Source: Colwellia sp. (lineage in GTDB: Bacteria > Pseudomonadota > Gammaproteobacteria > Enterobacterales > Alteromonadaceae). From it: DNA of 64,000 nucleotides. Under the pieces are notes generated by a model. It had not been told where the DNA came from. It searched no databases and saw only the letters and a list, made by a program, of their open reading frames with translations. A program made the position numbers and the translations under genes. Each line of letters begins with the position of its first letter. The stretch's first letter is position 1. The stretch lies in the NCBI RefSeq assembly GCF_013215345.1, contig NZ_JABSOV010000001.1, positions 1 to 64,000 of the forward strand, read 5' to 3'. Positions 9,792 to 38,984 of this stretch are shown piece by piece.

Positions 9792-9893
9792 TTAAATTCT
9801 CTGTTCATGTCTTAAGTGTTGATAACAGATTAGTTATGATATGGTGGTAAAACAAACGATATAAAATTGATTGTAATTAAGAAAATCTTAACT

Positions 9894-10808
9894 ATGAAAT
9901 ATTTACCGCCATTGAAGTCGCTACAATTTTTTCTGGTAGCAGGACAATCTAAAAATTTTAAACAAGCCGCTGAACAGCTCAATGTCACACAAGCAGCAGT
10001 CAGCCAACAAATTCGATTGTTAGAAGAAAACCTACAAGCGAAATTGTTTGAGCGCACCAATAAACAAACCATGCTTACCGAAAAAGGACGAAAACTATTA
10101 CCCTTTATGCAAAGGGGATTTGAAGAGTTAAGCAGTGGTATTCAAGTCGTTACCGGGGATCCAAATCCACAAATATTACGTATTTCTACCGTGCATTCTT
10201 TTTGCTCTCTTTGGCTGGTTCCTAGGCTTCAGGAGTTCCAAAAATTACACCCTGAAATAATGGTGCAACTTGCTCCATCCAGTGCTCTTATTGATTTTCA
10301 ACAATCAAATATTGATTTGGCAATTCGTATGGGCAGAGGTGGTTATGCTGATTTAACCGAGAAGAAAATCTATGATGATAACCTCATCTTTGTGGCAAGC
10401 CCGAAGCTGCTAGACGGTATTGATAAGGATGACCCTGAGCAAGTATTTCAGTTACCTTGGATAGAGGATACCAGCATAGGAATACAGGAAACCTTTCAAA
10501 AATACTGTAAAAACATAAATTTTAACTATGAAAATTTGGTTCCCGTCATTCAAACCAATGATGCACTGCCGCTAATTGATAGTGCGGTGCATGACCGCGG
10601 TTTCTTAATGGTAAATAGTAGCTTAGTGGCTGAACATATACGCGCTGGTCGTTTAGTTAAGCTACTCAACTACTCGATAAAAAGTCCCTATTCACTTTAC
10701 CTTGTCGCGCCAGAACAGCAATTTTCATGGAGAAAAGTTAAGCTATTTGAAGACTGGATAGTACCTAAACTACGTAAGTCATTCTCCGATCTAGACAGTT
10801 ATGAATAA
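9894..10808 (+). CDS. LysR family transcriptional regulator (GcvA-like)
   Basis: About 304 aa. The N-terminal winged helix-turn-helix reads LPPLKSLQFFLVAGQSKNFK...LNVTQAAVSQQIRLLEE, and the effector domain follows with ISTVHSFCSLWLVPRL and DLAIRMGRGGY. The opening LPPLKSLQFF and the TQAAVSQQI recognition helix resemble the GcvA subgroup. I start at the ATG at 9894; an in-frame TTG at 9867 lacks support. The adjacent divergent gene (9447-9791) is the natural candidate target. The effector is unknown. Confidence 0.88.
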   Translation: MKYLPPLKSLQFFLVAGQSKNFKQAAEQLNVTQAAVSQQIRLLEENLQAKLFERTNKQTMLTEKGRKLLPFMQRGFEELSSGIQVVTGDPNPQILRISTVHSFCSLWLVPRLQEFQKLHPEIMVQLAPSSALIDFQQSNIDLAIRMGRGGYADLTEKKIYDDNLIFVASPKLLDGIDKDDPEQVFQLPWIEDTSIGIQETFQKYCKNINFNYENLVPVIQTNDALPLIDSAVHDRGFLMVNSSLVAEHIRAGRLVKLLNYSIKSPYSLYLVAPEQQFSWRKVKLFEDWIVPKLRKSFSDLDSYE

Positions 10809-10881: not shown

Positions 10882-11002
10882 ATTTGAAGCGTTTCTTTAA
10901 GATGAATGGCGCTAGAACAAGGCGGAAGCACGGAGCTTGGTTTACCAAGTGAGTACTTACAACGCTGTTATCGCTCCATTTAGCGATAAGAAACCTTCAA
11001 AT
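10882..11002. mobile_element. Short inverted-repeat element (MITE-like), 121 bp
   Basis: ATTTGAAGCGTTTCTT (10882-10897) and AAGAAACCTTCAAAT (10988-11002) are near-perfect inverted ends. Inside are CAAGGC (10918), the palindrome CTTGGTTTACCAAG (10936-10949), AACGC (10961), and a TTATCGCT...AGCGATAA stem near the right end. The right end abuts the acnB stop codon. It has no coding capacity. The layout matches three other elements in this window. An alternative reading is a terminator-like RNA structure for acnB. Confidence 0.5.
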
Positions 11003-13605
11003 TAGGCTTCTACTTGTAAGATAACAGTATCTGCTTTCTTGGTGTACTGCTCCATCTTATCGAAGTTCAAGTACCTATAAGTATCAGCTGATGTGGCATC
11101 AATTTTAGACGCGTATTCCATGTACTCAGCCGGGCTAGGTATTTTACCTAAGATAGCACCAACACCAGCAAGCTCTGCAGAGGTTAAGTAAACATTGGCG
11201 CCATTTCCTAAACGGTTAGGGAAGTTACGTGTAGACGTTGAAAGTACTGTAGATTTATCAGCTACACGTGCTTGGTTACCCATACATAATGAACAACCAG
11301 GTGCTTCAACACGCGCGCCAGCTTTACCGAAAATAGAGAAATAACCTTCGTCACTTAACTGCGCGCTATCCATTTTCGTTGGTGGTGCTACCCACATACG
11401 TGTTGGTAATGTGCCACCACTCTCTTCAAGGAAAGAGTCAATTATTTTACCCGCGGCACGAAAATGTCCAATGTTAGTCATACATGAACCGATGAATACT
11501 TCATCGACTTTAACACCAGCAACTTCTGATAATAATTTGGCATCATCAGGGTCATTTGGACAACAAACGATAGGCTCTTTGATATCAGCTAAATCAATTT
11601 CAATAATATGTGCGTATTCGGCATCGCTATCAGCAGACATTAATGAAGGTTTAGCTAACCATGCTTGCATACCTTTAATACGACGAGTAATGGTACGAAC
11701 ATCGCCATAGCCTTCGGCAATCATCCACTTAAGCATAACAATGTTAGAGTTTAAGTACTCGCTAACTGAATCTTCTTCAAGTTTAATAGAACAACCGGCA
11801 GCGCTGCGTTCAGCTGATGCATCTGATAATTCAAATGCTTGCTCAACTGATAAACCTTTCAGGCCTTCAATTTCTAGTATGCGGCCTGAGAATTCATTAA
11901 TTTTACCTGCTTTCTCAACGGTTAATAAACCTTTCTTGATACCGTAGTAAGGGATGGCATGAACTAGGTCACGTAAAGTGATGCCTGGCTGCATTTCACC
12001 TTTAAAGCGCACTAATATCGATTCCGGCATATCAAGGGGCATAACACCTGTTGCCGCGGCAAAAGCAACTAAACCGGAGCCTGCGGGGAAAGAAATACCT
12101 AATGGGAAACGTGTATGTGAATCACCACCAGTACCAACAGTGTCTGGTAATAACATACGGTTTAACCAAGAGTGAATAACCCCATCACCAGGGCGGAGTG
12201 ATATGCCACCACGATTCATCATGAAATCAGGCAGGGTGTGATGAGTAATAACATCAATAGGCTTAGGATAAGCAGAGGTATGACAGAAAGACTGCATAGT
12301 TAAATCAGCGGAGAAACCTAAACAGGCTAAATCTTTTAATTCGTCACGCGTCATAGGACCGGTAGTATCTTGCGATCCTACTGTGGTCATTTTAGGTTCA
12401 CAGTATTGACCTGGGCGCACACCATCAACATCACAGGCTTTACCAACCATCTTCTGCGCTAAAGTAAAACCTTTAGTAGAAGCTGCAGGGTCTACAGGTG
12501 TTGCAAATAAATCAGTCACTACAAGACCTAATGCTTCACGCGCACGACCGGTTAAACCACGACCGATAATTAATGGAATGCGGCCACCAGCACGCACTTC
12601 GTCTAATAATACTGGCGCAAGTTTAAAGGTAGAAATAACCTCACCGGCAGCATTCTTAACAACACCTTGGTATGGGTAAATGTCAATAACATCACCCATA
12701 TTCATTGCTTGTACGTCTAATTCAATGGGTAATGCGCCGGAATCTTCCATGGTGTTGTAGAAAATAGGGGCGATTTTACCGCCTAAACAGACACCACCAC
12801 CACGTTTATTAGGGATATAAGCAATATCATCACCCATAAACCATAAAACCGAGTTCGTTGCTGATTTACGTGAAGAGCCAGTTCCAACAACATCACCAAC
12901 ATAAGCCAGTGGAATACCATCTTTTTGTAATTCTTTAATTTGCACGATTGGCCCAACGCTGCCGTCTTTATCCGGTGTAATTCCTTGACGAGCAATTTTA
13001 AGCATGGCTTTAGCGTGTAATGGAATATCAGGACGAGACCAAGCATCGGGTGCGGGCGATAAATCATCTGTATTGGTTTCACCGGTAACTTTAAAAACTT
13101 TAACAGTAATTTTTTCTGCTACTTTTTCTTTTGCAGTAAACCACTCGGCATCAGCCCAAGATTGCATAACTTGCTTAGCAGCCGCGTTGCCTGCTTCGGC
13201 TTTTTCTTGCACGTCATGGAAAGCATCAAACATTAGTAAGGTATGTGATAAACCTTTCGCTGCTGTGGCAGATAATTTGTCACAGTCAAGAAGATCAATC
13301 ATGGGTTGGATATTATAACCACCTAACATGGTGCCTAATAATTGTGTGGCTTTTTCAGCGCTTAAAATAGCTGAAGTGACTTCACCTTTAGTCACAGCGG
13401 CTAAAAAACCTGCTTTAACGTAAGCCGCATCATCAACCCCTGCGGGTACACGATTACTTAATAAATCAATTAAAAAGGCTGCTTCACCCATCGGTGGGTT
13501 TTTAATTAATTCAACTAATGCAGCTGTTTGTTCGGCGTCTAAAGCCTTAGGTACTATGCCTACTGCTGCACGTTCCGCTACGTGGTTGCGATATTCTTGA
13601 ATCAC
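11002..13605 (-). CDS. acnB: Aconitate hydratase B / 2-methylisocitrate dehydratase (proteobacterial type)
   Basis: About 867 aa, close to the 865 of E. coli AcnB. It carries the N-terminal HEAT-like domain ([13 protein letters not shown]..., [19 protein letters not shown]), the swivel domain ([33 protein letters not shown]), and the iron-sulfur catalytic domains with [32 protein letters not shown], and the [4Fe-4S] cysteines in GSCMTN and GCSLCMGNQ. It interconverts citrate and isocitrate in the TCA cycle and can serve the methylcitrate pathway. I place the start at GTG 13605, which follows AGGTGAG with a 5-nt gap and gives the expected N-terminus; an in-frame GTG at 13614 is less likely. 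A second acnB is transcribed divergently. Confidence 0.96.
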
Positions 13606-14053
13606 GACTCTCACCTTTTGATAGGGCGGACACTTATTACTTCTTATTAATTGGACTCGATTCTTTGGTTATCAAGACTAGGACAAAGTGGTTAAGTATC
13701 CGAAATTAAAAATTATCGATACCTTGCTGCAGTTACTTATTTAAAAGTTAAAGGACAGCAGGGTGATGACTACTATTTGGACTCTATCACTAAATATAGA
13801 CGATAATTAATCTACACAGGCGCCAAATAAATTGATATTTACCATTACGTGTGAAGAAAGTGTTATGAGTAAAGTGGTATAACCACTATAACTATATCCA
13901 CTACCAACTATAACCAATGTGAATAGTGCTTATTTAAGCAAATGATTACGTAGTGCTTAGAAAATCAGGTAAAATAGAGATAAGTAGAGATAAAATTTGT
14001 CCATGCTAATGATGACAATGTTATTAGCGCCTTAGAACTAGAGAGAGTTTTAA
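13606..14053. promoter_or_regulatory. Divergent promoter region between the two aconitase genes
   Basis: About 450 bp containing no ORF. It must carry promoters for both aconitases. The clearest element is the palindrome at 13873-13887. GAGAGAG at about 14041 is the ribosome-binding site of the right-hand gene. Confidence 0.6.
13873..13887. promoter_or_regulatory. Palindromic operator candidate, TGGT-N3-ACCA (GntR/PdhR class)
   Basis: AGTGGTATAACCACT has 6-bp perfect arms around ATA. Its core TGGTnnnACCA is the half-site pattern of FadR-subfamily GntR regulators, including PdhR, whose gene and strong operators occur at 39-40 kb in this window. It lies about 167 bp upstream of the second aconitase. 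Which regulator binds is inference. Confidence 0.4.
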
Positions 14054-16861
14054 ATGAGTCTATATATAGAATACATTAAAGAAATTGAAAGTCGTAAAAA
14101 TGATCTAGCATTGGCTCCTTTGCCAATTGATGGCGCGGAGTTATTATCTGAGATTATTGCTCAAATTAAAGATTCAGCAAATGAGCATAGAGCTGATTCA
14201 CTTAACTTTTTCATCTATAACACTTTACCAGGCACAACTAGTGCTGCCGGTGTAAAAGCTGCTTTCCTAAAAGAAATAATCTTAGGCGAATCTGTACTAG
14301 CAGAAATTACCCCTACGTATGCTTTTGAATTGTTGTCTCACATGAAAGGCGGACCTTCAATTGAAGTACTTCTTGATTTAGCATTATCTGATGACGCAGC
14401 AGTCGCAAAACCAGCAGCAGAAGTATTAAAAACACAAGTATTTTTATATGACGCTGATACAGCTCGTCTTGAAGCGGCTTTTAAAGCAGGCAATGCGCTT
14501 GCTAAAGAGGTTTTACAAAGCTACGCACAAGCTGAATTTTTCACTAAGCTTCCAGAAATAGCAGAAAAAATTGAAGTCGTTACTTATATTGCTGGTGAAG
14601 GCGATATATCAACTGACTTACTTTCTCCTGGTCATCAAGCTCACTCTCGTGCTGATCGTGAATTACACGGCAAGTGTTTGATCACTCCAGAAGCTCAAGC
14701 AGAAATACAAGCATTACAAGCTAAGCACCCTAAAGCTAAAGTAATGCTTATCGCAGAAAAAGGCACTATGGGTGTTGGTTCTTCTCGTATGTCTGGTGTT
14801 AACAACGTTGCACTATTGGCGGGTAAAAAAGCAAGTCCTTACGTACCATTTATTAACATTGCCCCAGTTGTTGCAGGTACTAACGGCATCGCTCCTATCT
14901 TCCTGACTACTGTTGATGTAACTGGTGGTATTGGTCTTGACCTTAAAAATTGGGTTAAGAAAGTAGATGCTAATGGTAACAATGTTGTTGACGATAATGG
15001 CGATGCAGTGCTAGAAGAAGCTTACTCGGTAGCTACAGGTACTGTATTAACTATCGATACTAAAGGGCAGAAGTTATATAACGGTGATAAAGAATTAGTT
15101 GACGTATCTTCAGCATTCACTCCACAAAAAGTGGAATTCATGAAAGCAGGTGGTTCTTACGCGGTTACTTTCGGTAAGAAATTGCAAACATTTGCGGCAG
15201 AAACTTTGGGCGTTGAAACACCTGCTGTTTACGCAGCATCTAAAGAGATCTCACATGAAGGTCAAGGTTTAACTGCTGTTGAAAAAATATTTAACCGTAA
15301 CGCAGTTGGTGTTGCTTCAGAAACTCCATTACATGCAGGTTCTAACGTTCGCGTGACAGTGAACATTATTGGTTCTCAGGACACCACTGGCCCAATGACA
15401 TGCCAAGAGTTAGAAGCGATGGCTGCTTCTACAATTTCGCCAATCGTTGACGGTGCTTATCAGTCTGGTTGTCACACCGCATCGGTATGGGATAGCAAAG
15501 CAAAAGCGAACATTCCTAAGCTCATGAGCTTTATGAATAAGTTTGGTCTTATCACTGCGCGTGATCCTAAAGGTGCTTACCTGCCGATGACAGATGTTAT
15601 TCATAAAGTATTGAATGATATTACTGTGGACGACCGCGCTATCATCATCGGTGGTGATTCGCATACTCGTATGTCTAAAGGCGTCGCTTTTGGTGCCGAC
15701 TCAGGTACAGTGGCGATCGCATTAGCAACGGGTGAAGCGGCTATGCCAATCCCTGAATCAGTTAAAGTAACCTTTAAAGGTCACATGAAAGACCACATGG
15801 ATTTCCGTGACGTAGTACACGCAACGCAATTGCAAATGCTTAAGCAATTTGGTGGCGAGAATGTTTTCCAAGGTCGTGTGATTGAAGTACACATTGGTAC
15901 TTTATTAGCTGACCAAGCATTCACTTTTACCGATTGGTCTGCAGAGATGAAAGCAAAAGCGTCTATCTGTATTTCTGAAGATGACACTTTAGTTCAATCA
16001 CTTGAGCTAGCTAAAAATCGTATCCAAATAATGATCAATAAGGGTATGGAAAACACAGAAAAAACACTTAACGGTTTAATTGCTTTAGCTGATAAACGTA
16101 TCGACGGGATCAAAGCAGGCACTACCCCGGCATTATCACCAGATGATACCGCTAAGTATTACGCAGAAGTGGTTGTTGATTTAGATGCTATTGATGAGCC
16201 AATGATTGCTGATCCTGACGTAAATAATGATGATCTATCTAAGCGTTATACCCATGACGTAATTCGTCCTGTTTCATTCTACACAGATAAATCAGTTGAT
16301 TTAGGTTTTGTTGGTTCTTGTATGGTGCATAAAGGCGATATGCAAATCATCGCGCAAATGTTACGTAACATGGAAGCACAAGGTAAGAAGATTGAATTTA
16401 AAGCACCATTAGTTGTCGCGCCACCAACATACAACATTGTTGATGAGCTTAAAGCTGAAGGTGACTGGGACATTTTACAAAAGTATTCCGGCTTTGAATT
16501 TGATGATGCACATCCGAAAGGTGCTGCTCGTACTAAGTACGAAAATATCATGTACCTTGAACGCCCAGGTTGTAACTTATGTATGGGTAACCAAGAGAAA
16601 GCTGAACCAGGCGATACGGTAATTGCTACTTCTACACGTTTATTCCAAGGTCGTGTGGTAGCGGATACTGCAGAGAAGAAAGGTGAATCATTACTTGGTT
16701 CAACGCCTCTAGTTGTACTTTCAACTATGCTGGGTCGTTTCCCTACTCTTGCAGAGTACAAAAGTGCTGTAGACGGTATTAACTTAACTAAGTTCACTCC
16801 ACCAACACATGAGCTGAGCACTAAGTTCACCGGTGAAGCTGTACCAATTAAAGTAGTTTAA
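14054..16861 (+). CDS. Second aconitate hydratase B, Bacteroidota-like long form
   Basis: 935 aa, about 70 residues longer than the neighbouring AcnB and clearly different from it. The N-terminus reads YIKEIESRKNDLALAPLPID..., with NFFIYNTLPGTTSAAGVKAA and LLSHMKGGPSIEVLLDLAL. An insertion around residues 295-350 (NWVKKVDANGNNVVDDNGDA, YNGDKELVDVSS) is absent from the other copy. The active site is complete: [42 protein letters not shown] and the cluster cysteines GCNLCMGNQ. From memory this form is the one typical of Flavobacteriia and other Bacteroidota, which suggests horizontal transfer; a tree would decide. It should catalyse citrate-isocitrate and/or 2-methylisocitrate interconversion. 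A strong terminator follows. Confidence 0.92.
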   Translation: MSLYIEYIKEIESRKNDLALAPLPIDGAELLSEIIAQIKDSANEHRADSLNFFIYNTLPGTTSAAGVKAAFLKEIILGESVLAEITPTYAFELLSHMKGGPSIEVLLDLALSDDAAVAKPAAEVLKTQVFLYDADTARLEAAFKAGNALAKEVLQSYAQAEFFTKLPEIAEKIEVVTYIAGEGDISTDLLSPGHQAHSRADRELHGKCLITPEAQAEIQALQAKHPKAKVMLIAEKGTMGVGSSRMSGVNNVALLAGKKASPYVPFINIAPVVAGTNGIAPIFLTTVDVTGGIGLDLKNWVKKVDANGNNVVDDNGDAVLEEAYSVATGTVLTIDTKGQKLYNGDKELVDVSSAFTPQKVEFMKAGGSYAVTFGKKLQTFAAETLGVETPAVYAASKEISHEGQGLTAVEKIFNRNAVGVASETPLHAGSNVRVTVNIIGSQDTTGPMTCQELEAMAASTISPIVDGAYQSGCHTASVWDSKAKANIPKLMSFMNKFGLITARDPKGAYLPMTDVIHKVLNDITVDDRAIIIGGDSHTRMSKGVAFGADSGTVAIALATGEAAMPIPESVKVTFKGHMKDHMDFRDVVHATQLQMLKQFGGENVFQGRVIEVHIGTLLADQAFTFTDWSAEMKAKASICISEDDTLVQSLELAKNRIQIMINKGMENTEKTLNGLIALADKRIDGIKAGTTPALSPDDTAKYYAEVVVDLDAIDEPMIADPDVNNDDLSKRYTHDVIRPVSFYTDKSVDLGFVGSCMVHKGDMQIIAQMLRNMEAQGKKIEFKAPLVVAPPTYNIVDELKAEGDWDILQKYSGFEFDDAHPKGAARTKYENIMYLERPGCNLCMGNQEKAEPGDTVIATSTRLFQGRVVADTAEKKGESLLGSTPLVVLSTMLGRFPTLAEYKSAVDGINLTKFTPPTHELSTKFTGEAVPIKVV

Positions 16862-17066: not shown

Positions 17067-17444
17067 TTATTTGCTTATTGCACACTCTAATTTTGCGGTT
17101 AAGTTTGGCATAATCAAATTTGGTGAAGCACGCGGATAATCAAAACTCTCAACCCCTTTAACTAACTCCAATTTGTAGCCATACTGACCACAAATTAAAT
17201 ATCCTCTACGCAATAAAAAAGCAGATAAACGGTCAAAACTAACGTTATTATTAGCTATAACTTCAAGTTGATAATTATTATCATCAAATTTCGTTTTTTT
17301 TAATTGCAGCTGGTGATCAAAGTCCCACTCAGATTTCGCTTGGCCTAGAACGGCTGTACTTGGTCCAGCACATGCACCTAAAAAGAATGCACATAGTGGT
17401 GGAAGGATATATTTATGCGCGAGCTTAGTTTTTAGCATTGTCAT
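17067..17444 (-). CDS. Putative lipoprotein of unknown function
   Basis: About 125 aa. A type II signal peptide ends in the lipobox LGAC (AFFLGACAG), so it should be lipidated and membrane-anchored. The mature region contains LEVIANNNVSFDRLSAFLL and a later pair of cysteines (YLICGQYG and KLECAIS). I chose ATG 17444 because AAGGAA lies about 9 nt upstream; the longer in-frame start at 17471 lacks this. The family is not recognised. The metalloprotease gene upstream on the same strand ends about 90 bp before it, so co-transcription is possible. Confidence 0.55.
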   Translation of the reverse strand: MTMLKTKLAHKYILPPLCAFFLGACAGPSTAVLGQAKSEWDFDHQLQLKKTKFDDNNYQLEVIANNNVSFDRLSAFLLRRGYLICGQYGYKLELVKGVESFDYPRASPNLIMPNLTAKLECAISK

Positions 17445-17533
17445 CGTTATTTTCCTTATAACTTTTGCCATTACCTTGAATTTTATAGTTTATCAAAAAA
17501 CAAGCTATTACAATACTTAACAGTAACTTAAGG

Positions 17534-32944: not shown

Positions 32945-34378
32945 TTATTTCTTTTTCTTAACTGCTTTAGCATTTGGTAAATCAGTGATTGAACCTTCAA
33001 AGATTTCTGCTGCTAAGCCAATTGATTCATTTAACGTTGGGTGAGCATGGATAGTTAATGCCAAGTCTTCAGCATCAGCGCCCATTTCAACCGCTAAACA
33101 AATTTCACCAAGCATTTCACCTGCATTGATACCAACAATAGCACCACCAAGAACACGACCAGTTCCTTTTTCAAAGATCATCTTAGTTTTGCCTTCAGTA
33201 CGTGCAGAAGCGATAGCACGACCAGAAGCAGCCCACGGGAAGTTAGCAACTTCAATGTTCAAGCCTTGCTCTTTTGCTTCAGCTTCAGTAACACCAACCC
33301 AAGCCATTTCAGGATCGGTATAAGCAATTGAAGGAATACAACGAGGGTCGAATTCATGTTTCTTACCAGAAATAACTTCTGCAGCACAATGTGCTTCATG
33401 AACAGCTTTATGAGCAAGCATAGGTTGACCAACAACATCGCCAATAGCGAAGATGTGCGGTACGTTAGTACGTAATTCTTTAGACACGTTAATGAAACCA
33501 CGCTCATCAACATTTACGCCAGCTTTATCAGCAGCAACTAAGTGACCGTTAGGCTTACGACCAACAGCAACTAAAATCTTGTCATAACGAACTTGTTCAG
33601 CTGGTGCTTTTTTACCTTCAAAAGTAACGTATAAACCGTCATCTTTTGCTTCAACAGCAACAACTTTAGTAGACAACATTATGTTGAATTTTTTCTTGTT
33701 GTAGTTGGTATAAACTCTAACAATATCTTTATCAGCCGCAGGCACTAATTGGTCAGCAAACTCAACTACAGATACATTAGAACCTAATGCAGAGTACACA
33801 GTTCCCATTTCTAGACCAATAATACCGCCACCCAATACTAATAATTCTTCTGGTACGTCTTTAAGTTCTAAAGCACCAGTAGAATCAATAACACGTGGGT
33901 CATCGGTTGGAATGAATGGTAAGTTAACCACTGATGAACCTGCCGCTATAATGGCATTATCAAAAGTAATAGTGGTTGTTTCACCGTCGTTACCTGCAAC
34001 TTCGATTGTTTTATCAGAAGTAAATTTACCGTAACCATAAACTGTGGTTACTTTACGGCTTTTTGCCATACCCAATAAACCACCGGTAAGCTGTGCAGTT
34101 ACACTGTCTTTCCAGCTACGGATTTTATCTAAATCAATTTCAGGCTTACCAAAAGTAACACCGTGAGATGCCATTGCTGCTGCATCATCAATTACTTTAG
34201 CTACGTGAAGTAGTGCTTTAGAAGGAATACAACCAACGTTTAAACAAACGCCGCCTAATGTTTCACGACTTTCTACTAACACTACATCTAAGCCTAAATC
34301 GGCTGCGCGGAATGCTGCAGAATAACCGCCAGGGCCTGCACCTAATATCACTACTTGAGTTTTAATTTCGTTACTCAT
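32945..34378 (-). CDS. lpdA: Dihydrolipoyl dehydrogenase (E3 of 2-oxo acid dehydrogenases)
   Basis: About 477 aa, standard length. FAD motif VVILGAGPGGYSAAFRAADL, the redox disulfide GGVCLNVGCIPSKAL, NAD-binding LVLGGGIIGLEMG, and the C-terminal IHAHPTLNES with the catalytic His. It reoxidises lipoyl groups of the pyruvate, 2-oxoglutarate and glycine cleavage complexes. Last gene of the pdhR-aceE-aceF-lpdA order. ATG 34378 follows GAGGAAAATT; an in-frame ATG at 34390 is less well placed. A terminator follows. Confidence 0.97.
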   Translation of the reverse strand: MSNEIKTQVVILGAGPGGYSAAFRAADLGLDVVLVESRETLGGVCLNVGCIPSKALLHVAKVIDDAAAMASHGVTFGKPEIDLDKIRSWKDSVTAQLTGGLLGMAKSRKVTTVYGYGKFTSDKTIEVAGNDGETTTITFDNAIIAAGSSVVNLPFIPTDDPRVIDSTGALELKDVPEELLVLGGGIIGLEMGTVYSALGSNVSVVEFADQLVPAADKDIVRVYTNYNKKKFNIMLSTKVVAVEAKDDGLYVTFEGKKAPAEQVRYDKILVAVGRKPNGHLVAADKAGVNVDERGFINVSKELRTNVPHIFAIGDVVGQPMLAHKAVHEAHCAAEVISGKKHEFDPRCIPSIAYTDPEMAWVGVTEAEAKEQGLNIEVANFPWAASGRAIASARTEGKTKMIFEKGTGRVLGGAIVGINAGEMLGEICLAVEMGADAEDLALTIHAHPTLNESIGLAAEIFEGSITDLPNAKAVKKKK

Positions 34379-34609
34379 AATTTTCCTCACAATTAGTTAA
34401 GAAAAATTCAATACGTTGTTCTTTTGTCCAATTGCTACGGTGAAAGTACTCATTGACTAACGTCAACTCCATGCATTCTTCTTGCTATCGGACAAAGTCA
34501 CTTCGACTTGAAATATTCTTGAATATTTATATTTATTGGTTTTAAATTTTATGGGCGAAATTCTACTCTTATGCGTTGAATTTCGCCAACTTTAATTAAT
34601 CAATATCGA

Positions 34610-36277
34610 CTAAAGTATCAATTTACGAATATCAGACATTACGCCAGCTAAATGCACAGTAAAACGTGCTGCTAAGGCACCATCAATAACACGGTGATCG
34701 TATGACATAGATAAAGGCAACATTAATTTAGGTTCGAAATCTTTACCATTCCATTTAGGTTTCATTTCTGATTTAGAAACACCTAAAATAGCAACTTCTG
34801 GTGCATTAACGATTGGCGTAAATGCCGTTCCGCCAATACCACCAAGGCTAGAAATAGTAAAACAACCACCTTGCATATCAGTGGCTTTTAATTTGCCATC
34901 ACGTGCTTTAAGACTGATTTCAAGTAATTCACGCGATAACTGGTGAATACCTTTTTGATCAACATCACGCACTACTGGTACAACTAAACCGTTCGGTGTA
35001 TCTACGGCAACACCAATATGGATGTACTTTTTCAAAATTAAGCTTTCACCGTCTTCACTCAAGCTTGAGTTAAACGTTGGGAATGCACGTAAGGCATTTG
35101 CCGCCGCTTTTAAAACAAACACTAATGGCGTAATTTTAAAACCAAGCTTTTGCTTTTCACAAAGTACGTTTTGCTCTTTACGGAAGGCTTCAACGTTAGT
35201 GATATCAGCTTCATCGAATTGAGTAACATGTGGAATAGTTACCCAGTTGCGATGTAAGAAGGGTCCAGAAATTTTCTGAATACGTGATAATGCTTTTGTT
35301 TCAATTTCGCCGAATTTAGAGAAATCAATGGCTCTAGCACTAACAACTTGTAGACCACCTTCACCGCTAGCAACAGAGGTACCTGCATTAGCTTTCGGGC
35401 GAGACAATTCATATTTAACGTATGATTGCACATCTTCTTTTAAGATACGGCCTTTACGACCAGTACCTTTAACTAAGGTTAAATCAACACCAAATTCACG
35501 GCCAATACGGCGAATAGAAGGTGAAGTGTAAATGTTACCTTTACTAACATTACCCGCTTGTGGGTGATGTGGTACAGGTGAAGCCGCAGGTTTGGTCGTT
35601 GCAGCAACTGTAGCAGTAGGCGCAGCAACTGGTGTAGGTGCTACTACAGGAGCTGGAACCGTTACAGGTGCAGCAGCTGCACTGCCAACAGTTTCAAGCT
35701 TGATTACTAATGAACCTTGCTTAACTTTATCACCGTTGTTAATGAATACTTCTTTAACAGTACCGGCATGTGTAGATGGCACATCCATAGTAGCTTTATC
35801 AGTTTCTAAAGTGATTAAACCATCTTCTTCTTCGATGACATCACCAACGCTAACAAGTACATCGATAACTTCAACTTCACCGTCTTCACCAATATCTGGT
35901 ACAGAAATTTCAATGATTGCTGATGCAGTAGCGGCCGCAGCAACTACAGGCGCCGCTTCAACTACCGGAGCAACAGGAGCGGCTACAGATGCTTCAACTA
36001 CAGGCGCTGGTGCAGCTTCTTCTGCTGATGCCGAAGCACCTGCAGATTTCATTTCGGCAATAACATCGCCTTCTTTAATTTTATCGCCAACACTTACCAA
36101 TAAGCTAACAAGCTCACCAGCAAATGGCGCAGGGATATCCATTGAAGCTTTATCTGTTTCAACGGTGATAATACCTTCGTCTGCTTCTAGGCTATCGCCA
36201 ACAGCAAAACAAATTTCAATAATTTCAACTTCATCGCCGCCAACATCAGGGACTAGGATTTTTTCAATATCAGACAT
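34610..36277 (-). CDS. aceF: Pyruvate dehydrogenase E2, dihydrolipoamide acetyltransferase
   Basis: 555 aa. Two lipoyl domains with lipoylated Lys in [10 protein letters not shown] (near residue 43) and [10 protein letters not shown] (near residue 164), joined by Ala/Pro/Val-rich flexible linkers. A peripheral-subunit-binding domain ([20 protein letters not shown]) and the catalytic domain ([19 protein letters not shown], with [10 protein letters not shown] near the C-terminus) follow. E. coli AceF has three lipoyl domains; two is common in related marine gammaproteobacteria. It passes acetyl groups from E1 to CoA. It lies 25 bp downstream of aceE. The Ala/Pro-rich linkers create long antisense ORFs that are not genes. 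Confidence 0.97.
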
Positions 36278-36302
36278 TTTATATTCCTTCTCTAGTCAAT
36301 AA

Positions 36303-38984
36303 TTATGCGTAAAGTGGGTTAAGTTTTTCAGTATCAATATCAAAGCGTTTAATTGCTTTAGTTACTACTGAACGTTCAATTTCACCACGATTCGCTAATT
36401 CATACAATGAAGCTACTACCACGTATGCTGCACTTACTTCGAAGTGAGTACGTAAGTTTGCACGGCTATCACTACGACCAAAGCCATCAGTACCTAAACA
36501 ACGGTATTCAGTATCGATGTACGCACGTACTTGCTCAGAGTAGTTTTTAATGTAATCAGTAGCCGCAATTGCAGGACCTGCTGCTTTAGTAATAACTTGG
36601 CTAATATAGGGTACACGTGGTGTACTTTCAGGGTGAAGCATGTTCCAACGTGTTACATCTTGACCGTCACGAGTAAGTTCATTAAATGAAGTCACCGAAT
36701 AAACATCACTTGAGATGTTGTAATCATTAGCAAGAATTTGTGCTGCTTCACGTACTTTCTCTAAGATAGTACCTGAGCCTAATAACTGCACATTAGCAGT
36801 CGCTTTACCTTTAGCCGGCGCAGCTTGTTCAAGTTGGTAAATACCTTTAATGATCTCATCAGCAACGTTTTCTCTTTCTGGTAACGCTGGATGTTGGTAG
36901 TTTTCATTCATTAACGTTAAGTAGAAGAAGATATTTTCATTTTCTTCGTACATGCGACGTAAACCTTCACGAACGATAACCGCAATTTCATAACCGTAGG
37001 TTGGATCATAAGTCACACAGTTAGGAATTAAACCGGCTTGTACATGTGAATGACCATCTTGATGTTGCAGACCTTCACCGTTAAGTGTGGTGCGACCTGC
37101 AGTAGCACCTAATAAGAAACCACGTGTTTGGCTATCGCCTGCTGCCCATGCTAAATCACCAACACGTTGGAAACCAAACATTGAATAGTAGATGTAGAAT
37201 GGAATCATTGTTGCATTACAGGTTGAGTAAGAAGTACCCGCAGCAATCCAAGATGCCATAGCACCTAGCTCGTTAATACCTTCTTGTAAAACTTGGCCTT
37301 TTTTATCTTCGCGGTAATAAGCTACTTGATCAGCATCTTGTGGAATATATTTTTGACCTTCGCTTGCGTAAATACCGACTTGACGGAACAAACCTTCCAT
37401 ACCAAAGGTACGTGCTTCATCAGGAATGATTGGCACGATACGCTTACCTATTTTTTTGTCTTTTAATAAGGCATTTAATACACGAACAAAAGTCATGGTA
37501 GATGATACTTCACGCTCACCAGAGCCTTTCAAAATAGCATCGAAAACTTTTAACTTTGGAATTTCAAGTACTTCTTCCGCTTGTTTACGACGTGCTGGTA
37601 GAGAACCACCTAATGCTTCACGACGTGCTTTCATGTACTTAAATTCTTCGCTGTCTTCAGGGAACTTGTAAAAAGGTAAGTCAGCAATATTTTCATCACT
37701 TACCGGAATATTGAAACGGTCACGGTAATGTTTAATTGATTCAACGTCCATTTTCTTAACGTTATGCGCAATGTTTAATGCTTCACCAGAGGCACCTAAA
37801 CCAAAACCTTTAACTGTTTTAGCTAAGATTACCGTTGGGCGACCTTTAGTATTATTGGCTTTTTCATAAGCAGCATAAACTTTAACTGGATCATGACCAC
37901 CACGGTTTAAACGCCAGATATCTGCATCTGACATGTTAGCAACCATAGCCGCTGTTTCAGGGTACTTGTTAAAGAAGTTTTCGCGGGTGTACTTACCACC
38001 TTTCGCTTTACAGTTTTGGTATTCGCCATCTACTGTTTCGTTCATTAACTGTAATAATTTACCTGAAGTATCACGAGCAATAAGTGAATCCCAGTAAGAG
38101 CCCCAAATAACTTTCACTACTTCCCAGCCTGCGCCACGGAAAGTACCTTCAAGTTCTTGGATGATTTTACCATTACCACGTACCGGACCATCTAAGCGCT
38201 GTAAGTTACAGTTGATGATGAAAGTTAAGTTGTCTAAACCTTCACGAGACGCTAAACCAATAGCACCTAATGATTCTGGCTCATCCGTTTCACCATCACC
38301 TAGGAAACAGTATACGCGTTGACCTGAACAATCTTTAATACCACGGTCAGTTAAGTATTTTAAAAAACGTGCAGTATAGATAGCTTGTAATGGACCTAGA
38401 CCCATAGAAACGGTAGGGAACTGCCAGAAATCATCCATTAAATGTGGATGAGGGTATGAAGATAAACCTTTGCCATCACATTCTTGACGGAAATTATTCA
38501 TTTGATCTTCAGTTAAACGACCTTCCATAAAGGCACGAGAATAGATACCCGGAGAAATATGACCTTGGGCAAAGATGAAATCACCGCCATCTTTTTCTGA
38601 GGCTGCTTTAAAGAAGTGGTTAAAACCTACATCGTATAACGTTGAAGAAGAAGCAAAGCTACCAATGTGACCACCAAGATCTAAATCTTTTTTAGAGGCG
38701 CGTAATACTAATACTAAGGCATTCCAACGAATTGCCGCACGGATGCGTGATTCAATGGTTTGATCCGCAGGCATATGAGGCTCTTGTCCTGGTGGGATAG
38801 TGTTTACATAAGCTGTAGTCGCATCAAATGGTAAATGAGTACCACCACGACGTGCGCGTTCAATTAATGCTTCTAATAACTGATGTGCACGCTCTGGACC
38901 TTCATTTTCTAACACTGATTCCATTGATTCTAACCACTCTTGGGTTTCTGCTGAATCAATATCGATATTTGGTAGATCTGACAT
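36303..38984 (-). CDS. aceE: Pyruvate dehydrogenase E1, homodimeric type
   Basis: 893 aa, close to the 887 of E. coli AceE. N-terminal region SAETQEWLESMESVL; thiamine diphosphate binding seen in GDGETDEPES and the later NCNLQRLDGP; core DEARTFGMEGLFRQ and SYSTCNATMIPFYIYYSMFG, with the conserved QHQDGHSH loop. It decarboxylates pyruvate and acetylates E2. It is the first enzyme gene after pdhR; the 136-bp gap to pdhR may hold an internal promoter. Confidence 0.98.
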   Translation of the reverse strand: MSDLPNIDIDSAETQEWLESMESVLENEGPERAHQLLEALIERARRGGTHLPFDATTAYVNTIPPGQEPHMPADQTIESRIRAAIRWNALVLVLRASKKDLDLGGHIGSFASSSTLYDVGFNHFFKAASEKDGGDFIFAQGHISPGIYSRAFMEGRLTEDQMNNFRQECDGKGLSSYPHPHLMDDFWQFPTVSMGLGPLQAIYTARFLKYLTDRGIKDCSGQRVYCFLGDGETDEPESLGAIGLASREGLDNLTFIINCNLQRLDGPVRGNGKIIQELEGTFRGAGWEVVKVIWGSYWDSLIARDTSGKLLQLMNETVDGEYQNCKAKGGKYTRENFFNKYPETAAMVANMSDADIWRLNRGGHDPVKVYAAYEKANNTKGRPTVILAKTVKGFGLGASGEALNIAHNVKKMDVESIKHYRDRFNIPVSDENIADLPFYKFPEDSEEFKYMKARREALGGSLPARRKQAEEVLEIPKLKVFDAILKGSGEREVSSTMTFVRVLNALLKDKKIGKRIVPIIPDEARTFGMEGLFRQVGIYASEGQKYIPQDADQVAYYREDKKGQVLQEGINELGAMASWIAAGTSYSTCNATMIPFYIYYSMFGFQRVGDLAWAAGDSQTRGFLLGATAGRTTLNGEGLQHQDGHSHVQAGLIPNCVTYDPTYGYEIAVIVREGLRRMYEENENIFFYLTLMNENYQHPALPERENVADEIIKGIYQLEQAAPAKGKATANVQLLGSGTILEKVREAAQILANDYNISSDVYSVTSFNELTRDGQDVTRWNMLHPESTPRVPYISQVITKAAGPAIAATDYIKNYSEQVRAYIDTEYRCLGTDGFGRSDSRANLRTHFEVSAAYVVVASLYELANRGEIERSVVTKAIKRFDIDTEKLNPLYA

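Follow-up and report, generated by a model that had tools for sequence, protein, structure and literature searches.

Two AcnB-type genes at one locus

The window analysed here is a stretch of 64,000 nucleotides from Colwellia sp. (assembly GCF_013215345.1, contig NZ_JABSOV010000001.1, positions 1 to 64,000). It contains two adjacent genes of aconitase B (AcnB) type, here called T1 and T2, which are divergent, with 448 bp between their start codons (Table 1). Both reading frames are open. T1 starts with GTG, an alternative in-frame GTG at position 13614 giving a protein of 870 residues, and T2 starts with ATG; the T2 product is longer by 68 residues.

T1 scores 1512.6 bits on TIGR00117 (acnB), above the cut-off of 1287.2, and is the standard gammaproteobacterial AcnB, as the original prediction, made from the window's letters, had stated. 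T2 reaches 369.1 bits on the same family and so falls outside AcnB in the strict sense. On NF006690 (cut-off 782), both proteins pass, T2 with 953.6 and T1 with 1476.6 bits, and are AcnB in the wide sense. This family, named bifunctional aconitate hydratase 2/2-methylisocitrate dehydratase, also lends its name to plasmid-borne T2 genes; one name thus serves both types without separating them. The domain order PF11791-PF06434-PF00330 is common to T1 and T2. Their identity is 30% over 930 columns (BLASTP).

The open frames, the low identity, and the shared domains and motifs support the predicted presence of two intact AcnB genes of different type. The two proteins are not placed as sisters in the tree, where a separate, saturated branch lies between them, and on these comparisons T1 and T2 appear to be different evolutionary types and not a recent pair of paralogues. 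The adjacency of the genes is the one point in favor of a recent duplication inside the genus, and 30% identity and membership of separate families make its probability negligible.

Table 1. Features of the AcnB locus and its surroundings in the window
Feature	Position	Strand	Basis
LysR-type regulator beyond T1	9867..10808	plus	best match GcvA, 239 bits, under its cut-off of 288
T1, classical gammaproteobacterial AcnB, 867 residues	13605..11002	minus	TIGR00117 score and three Pfam domains
T1 Cys771-x2-Cys774, predicted [4Fe-4S] ligands	11284..11295	minus	alignment; ligand role by homology
T1 Cys708, predicted [4Fe-4S] ligand	11482..11484	minus	alignment; ligand role by homology
Divergent intergenic region, 448 bp	13606..14053		sequence between both start codons
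T2 leader	13970..14053	plus	
T2 leader, TAAAAT	13970..13975	plus	
T2 leader, TTTGTCC	13996..14002	plus	
T2 leader, arm GCTAAT	14005..14010	plus	
T2 leader, arm ATTAGC	14023..14028	plus	
T2, second-type AcnB, 935 residues	14054..16861	plus	NF006690 score and three Pfam domains; best solved relative 1l5j
T2 insert of 24 residues relative to T1 (residues 298-321), within the PF06434 match	14945..15016	plus	alignment
T2 Cys756, predicted [4Fe-4S] ligand	16319..16321	plus	alignment; ligand role by homology
T2 Cys840-x2-Cys843, predicted [4Fe-4S] ligands	16571..16582	plus	alignment; ligand role by homology
Small gene, 134 residues, convergent to T2, synteny marker	17067..17471	minus	no NCBIfam family at E 1e-5

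Conserved motifs and predicted fold

When 58 T1 and 117 T2 proteins are aligned, 175 positions are identical at a level of at least 95% in both families, and another 170 are fixed differently between them. The cluster cysteines (T1 C708, C771, and C774; T2 C756, C840, and C843) are at least 95% conserved within each family, as are the GSQDTTG, QSx, and STSTR..R motifs (the last with two arginines after CxxC), which we take to be catalytic. The residues that follow the first cluster cysteine differ, the motif reading GSCMTN in T1 and GSCMVH in T2. Relative to Escherichia coli AcnB (1l5j; TIGR00117), T1 passes the family cut-off and T2 retains domain order, cysteines, and motifs; T2 differs in scoring far under that cut-off and in residues specific to its type around the first cluster cysteine.

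The original prediction had given T2 a different N-terminus and an insertion around residues 295-350. The N-terminal sequence does differ, but it represents the PF11791 domain of T1 in divergent form (residues 6-163, 144 bits). The insertion is present, but comprises 24 residues. Smaller T2 inserts relative to T1 occupy residues 508-514, 666-673, 731-738, 813-824, 827-834, and 869-873.

The best solved relative of T2 by sequence is 1l5j (E 9e-88), which is also the top Foldseek match of the predicted T2 model (E 4e-52; template modelling score 0.72 by target and 0.67 by query). This model has a predicted local distance difference test score (pLDDT) of 69 and used an alignment including T1 rows, T2 rows alone having given 53. 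T2 is thus predicted to have the AcnB fold.

T2 is a core gene and T1 is optional in Colwellia

T2 was found in 36 of 37 genomes of the genus Colwellia, the single miss being 76% complete, and in every searched genus genome with at least 90% completeness. The 36 include one copy interrupted at a contig end (G035). In G008 (locus L176), three separate frames make up T2, and T1 is shorter than usual; this is read as an assembly error because rpoB of that genome is also broken. T1 is present in 21 of the 37 genomes, never without T2, and is missing from 15 of the 36 T2-bearing ones. A search of 39 genus genomes adds G447, with T1 and T2, and G448, 87% complete, in which neither was found. In Colwellia, T2 is a core gene and T1 is optional. 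Other genomes of the family, outside the genus (n = 15), have T1 only (nine), both genes (five), or T2 only (one).

The presence of T1 was mapped on an rpoB tree of 30 of the 39 genus genomes, omitting five without an rpoB match and four with partial or broken rpoB and no locus. At least 10 changes are required, nine of them forced by well-supported branches; shuffled labels average 9.7 changes, so T1 presence is unclustered. On the T2 protein tree, where T1 is scored by locus and copies located elsewhere are taken as absences (e.g., L027), there are 20 changes, 16 of them forced, versus 22.4 in shuffles (96 of 117 rows scored). The T1 and T2 tree sets exclude proteins with fewer than 700 matched residues or identity of 55% or less, as well as exact duplicates. 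Rows with near-identical T2 differ in T1, both by locus (L044 and L046) and by genome (G001 and G019).

T2 as the probable housekeeping aconitase of T1-less genomes

Four aconitase-family genes are present in the window genome, namely LeuC, AcnD, T1, and T2. LeuC scores 784.6 bits on TIGR00170 and lies beside leuB; its identity was profile-tested in this genome and assigned by length and Pfam score elsewhere. AcnD scores 1724 bits on TIGR02333 and neighbors a frame resembling methylcitrate synthase that does not reach its cut-off. AcnD is present in most genus genomes. Among the 15 genomes with T2 only, 11 are without AcnA and hold exactly three aconitase-family genes (LeuC-sized, AcnD-like, and T2), and in all 11 the AcnD-like protein is 85-95% identical to that of the window genome. 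The remaining four (G010, G013, G020, and G028) carry an AcnA-sized enzyme, approximately 42% identical to AcnD in the two that were compared.

AcnD belongs to the superfamily of T1 and T2, but has an AcnA-like architecture and depends on PrpF; as described in PMC5690661, the AcnD/PrpF route still needs AcnA or AcnB at a later step, to rehydrate 2-methyl-cis-aconitate. For isocitrate formation in the 11 genomes, T2 is the strongest candidate, being the sole AcnA/AcnB-type enzyme there, and it is likewise the strongest candidate for 2-methylisocitrate formation because the AcnD/PrpF route depends on such an enzyme. Gene content therefore points to T2 as the housekeeping aconitase of these 11 genomes, which lack both AcnA and T1, and suggests that T2 combines aconitase and 2-methylisocitrate dehydratase activity.

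The 170 differently fixed positions, including the replacement of TN by VH after the first cluster cysteine, might be taken to indicate that T2 is no aconitase but a dehydratase for another substrate, for instance one specific to methylcitrate. This is very unlikely, as an enzyme of that kind would leave the 11 genomes without any AcnA/AcnB-type aconitase, and the slot of the methylcitrate dehydratase is filled by AcnD. The same gene content speaks against the special cold, stress, or methylcitrate-only role that had been suggested for T2, for which additional roles are possible. The activity of T2 is probably ordinary, and its evolutionary setting unusual.

One site in three states

The surroundings of the genes were compared in 119 loci, which partly overlap (some records are counted twice). 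At the site marked by the 134-residue gene in Colwellia and its kin, T1, T2, and the marker occur together in 21 loci, and T2 and the marker without T1 in 26. Two loci (G250 and G320) have T1 and the marker without T2, the marker there being only 39% identical. The other 70 loci are without the marker. In an Alteromonas-like genus, loci with BLAST-matched flanks contain T1 alone (G288 and G422), T2 then T1 (G373 and G405), or T2 alone (G074), and an Alteromonas macleodii plasmid has T2, with T1 five genes further. The T2 clade of the Alteromonas-like genus is separate from that of Colwellia, and takeover by T2 has therefore probably occurred more than once.

In gene displacement in situ, or xenologous displacement, a foreign gene arrives beside the resident one and the resident is later lost. 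The old gene only, both genes, and the new gene only, found at two sites, are as expected of this process. The AcnB case would resemble it in the placement of a foreign gene beside a resident that is subsequently lost, and differs in that a core enzyme of the tricarboxylic acid (TCA) cycle is concerned and that all three states are seen at one site in close relatives.

The neighborhood on the T1 side takes two alternative forms, with putative TrhO and peptidase genes (L162, L163, L166, L174, L175, and L177) or efflux-adaptor-like and ABC/MacB-like genes (L179, L180, and L181), while the T2 side keeps the 134-residue marker. Of the loci compared, G034 is the only one in which a close homolog of the window's LysR-type gene adjoins T1.

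Spread and origin of T2

The closest named relatives of the window T2 are from Colwellia, with identities of 94% and below. T2 at 75% identity or more occurs in 25 Pseudomonadota genomes out of 397, 12 of them from the same class and 13 from other classes; among the matches listed, the next one lies at 37%. Plasmid records with a match number 148, of which 39 have at least 60% identity to T2. The plasmid hosts, among the matches listed, are Aliiroseovarius, Paracoccus, Leisingera, Octadecabacter, Shinella, Rhizobium, and Ruegeria; the Octadecabacter plasmid is of RepABC type and 31.6 kb in size. Five plasmid records were read for functional clues, and their contexts differ, with no common pathway found.

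Between proteobacterial classes, T2 retains 75-78% identity, compared to 63-81% for T1 in 18 members of the same order from outside the genus. Within Colwellia, the two proteins change at equal rates (median nonsynonymous divergence, dN, 0.078 for T1 and 0.076 for T2; 136 pairs from 17 genomes carrying both genes, without G018). Equal rates and a shallow T2 are hard to reconcile with vertical inheritance of T2 since the ancestor shared by the classes. Psychromonas T2 falls in two places in the tree, its monophyly being rejected (approximately unbiased test, p-AU 0.002). As T2 is shallow, patchy, found on plasmids, and in conflict with taxonomy in its tree, its spread among marine Proteobacteria has been horizontal.

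The original prediction associated long segments of T2 with Bacteroidota AcnB and was of a transfer from a marine Bacteroidota next to the native gene. The horizontally moving family is borne out, but the newcomer beside a native gene is not, T2 being present in 36 of 37 genus genomes and T1 absent from 15 of 36. The difference in type between T1 and T2, with the saturated branch between them, would be accounted for by acquisition from Bacteroidota, and a shallow, patchy T2 crown in Pseudomonadota would fit an earlier entry from outside the phylum. A recent acquisition from that source is nonetheless highly improbable, as the window T2 is nested among those of Colwellia, its nearest relatives and all other T2 proteins compared are proteobacterial, and T2 is near-universal in the genus and has native codon use (see below). 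The long stem of T2, saturated against T1, would be compatible with an earlier arrival in Pseudomonadota from another phylum, and Bacteroidota are a possible ultimate source. No Bacteroidota T2 was present among the plasmid, phage, and viral-contig matches listed, such collections being poor places for it. The phage search yielded seven matching records, all below 60% identity. Two of three viral-contig scans were without a relative, and the third gave 10 loci with identities of 30-44%, of which seven, at 30%, cover almost the full length and are T1-like.

Selection, codon use, and exchange within the genus

In 88 unsaturated genome pairs, the ratio of nonsynonymous to synonymous divergence (dN/dS) has medians of 0.085 (T1) and 0.078 (T2), and both genes are under purifying selection where both are present. 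Codon adaptation is 0.726 for T2 (rank 4 of 42 window genes) and 0.701 for T1 (rank 8 of 42), measured against 13 frames of the contig with ribosomal protein L2, some of them non-ribosomal. The G+C content of T2 is 0.410, compared to 0.402 for the median gene. The codon use of T2 is native. Codon adaptation within the window peaks at an aceE-aceF-lpd operon (32945-38984), approximately 16 kb past T2.

These values bear on the view that T1 and T2 are isoenzymes which divide labor by iron, redox state, temperature, or growth phase, T1 being kept where the regime matters; E. coli AcnA and AcnB are the known precedent. That pair resembles T1 and T2 in providing two aconitases per cell, and differs in that AcnA has another domain order, whereas here both enzymes are of AcnB type and adjacent. 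Similar purifying selection on both genes, their high codon adaptation, and the conserved leader that T2 has to itself (described below) agree with such a division. On the other side, T1 is missing from 15 of 36 T2 genomes, 11 of which are also without AcnA, and sister genomes with near-identical T2 differ in T1. Divided labor is possible but somewhat doubtful.

Synonymous divergence (dS) relative to rpoB has medians of 2.52 for T1 and 2.34 for T2 (44 pairs of moderate rpoB divergence). The T2/rpoB ratio is low between the window and G019 (0.95), G001 (0.83), G023 (0.93), and G005 (0.74). T2 is closer in these pairs than rpoB predicts, suggesting recent T2 exchange around the window lineage. 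In G019, T1 has diverged further from the window copy than T2 has, and a replaced T1 was considered and rejected, the T1/rpoB ratio of 2.88 being normal. With this ordinary value and the low T2 ratio, it is T2 that was exchanged in G019. As recombination within the genus affects T1 as well as T2, genomes may lack T1 through loss or because a T1-less donor segment has replaced the locus.

Probable displacement of a core enzyme in situ

It is likely that T2 is a real AcnB of a second subfamily, distinct in sequence, which has been passed on as a single gene, and that the window captures the two-gene intermediate of a replacement in situ. T2 would have entered lineages of marine Proteobacteria as a single gene and settled beside the resident T1, yielding the arrangement seen in the window. 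It would then have assumed the housekeeping role, upon which T1 could become dispensable and be lost. Loss as the main cause of missing T1 genes, and the reason for a preference for T2, are points that we infer. A wider account, in which a mobile, fitter, or differently tuned T2 with its own promoter and leader displaces the classical AcnB by repeated takeover in situ across marine Proteobacteria and is still sweeping by recombination within Colwellia, is put forward tentatively and is somewhat less likely than not.

Several observations weigh against replacement in situ. The catalysis of T2 is predicted from gene content. The 11 AcnA-less genomes are 93-100% complete, so that in a few of them an AcnA gene could have escaped detection, and the confidence of the T2 structure model is middling (pLDDT 69, and 53 in the first model). 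Nine of the 15 family members outside the genus hold T1 alone. The linkage of the genes is not general, as among 44 further T2 genomes, which partly overlap those of other searches, 33 are without T1, four have it within approximately 8 kb, and seven have it elsewhere. Marinomonas T2 splits in the tree, yet its monophyly is not rejected (p-AU 0.146). The unclustered presence of T1 fits rapid turnover but fits recombination as well, and counting changes cannot separate T1 gains from losses. T1 itself moves: between G032 and G017, its dS is 0.23, compared to 0.84 for T2 and 0.64 for rpoB, and exchange of T1 between the G032/G006 and G017 lineages is clearly indicated by these distances. The regain of some T1 copies is real, and counts slightly against replacement.

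Enzymes of central metabolism are usually assumed to be vertically inherited. With T2, an apparently uncharacterized second type of TCA-cycle enzyme would cross marine bacterial classes and take the housekeeping role, rendering the old gene dispensable. A search of the open-licence literature by title or abstract found no account of two AcnB types, and the database label AcnB spans two enzymes at approximately 30% identity. Replacement of a core enzyme can be tested in close relatives whose main difference is T1, and, if the wider account is true, Colwellia and the Alteromonas-like genus would form a natural series of old only, both, and new only, in which to ask why such an enzyme is replaced.

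The T2 promoter and leader

The promoter and leader of T2 (13940-14053) are alike in many T2 genes of Colwellia, Psychromonas, Litorilituus, and Paraglaciecola, also where the flanks differ. The shared upstream elements are a AATGATTAGTAG-like element, GGTAAAATA, TTTGTCC, and the GCTAAT..ATTAGC arms. RNAalifold returned no consensus pair over 36 T2 leaders picked by motif (own alignment), and folds of single leader sequences often pair the two arms, which may form an RNA hairpin or a DNA operator. Rfam gave two matches, both far under their gathering scores, and a promoter scan gave two matches, compared to 2.7 in shuffles. Upstream of several alphaproteobacterial T2 genes (plasmid loci L158, L159, and L161, and several genomic loci), a GTATAC..GCATAC inverted site is found instead, which presumably resembles the operators of GntR-family regulators.

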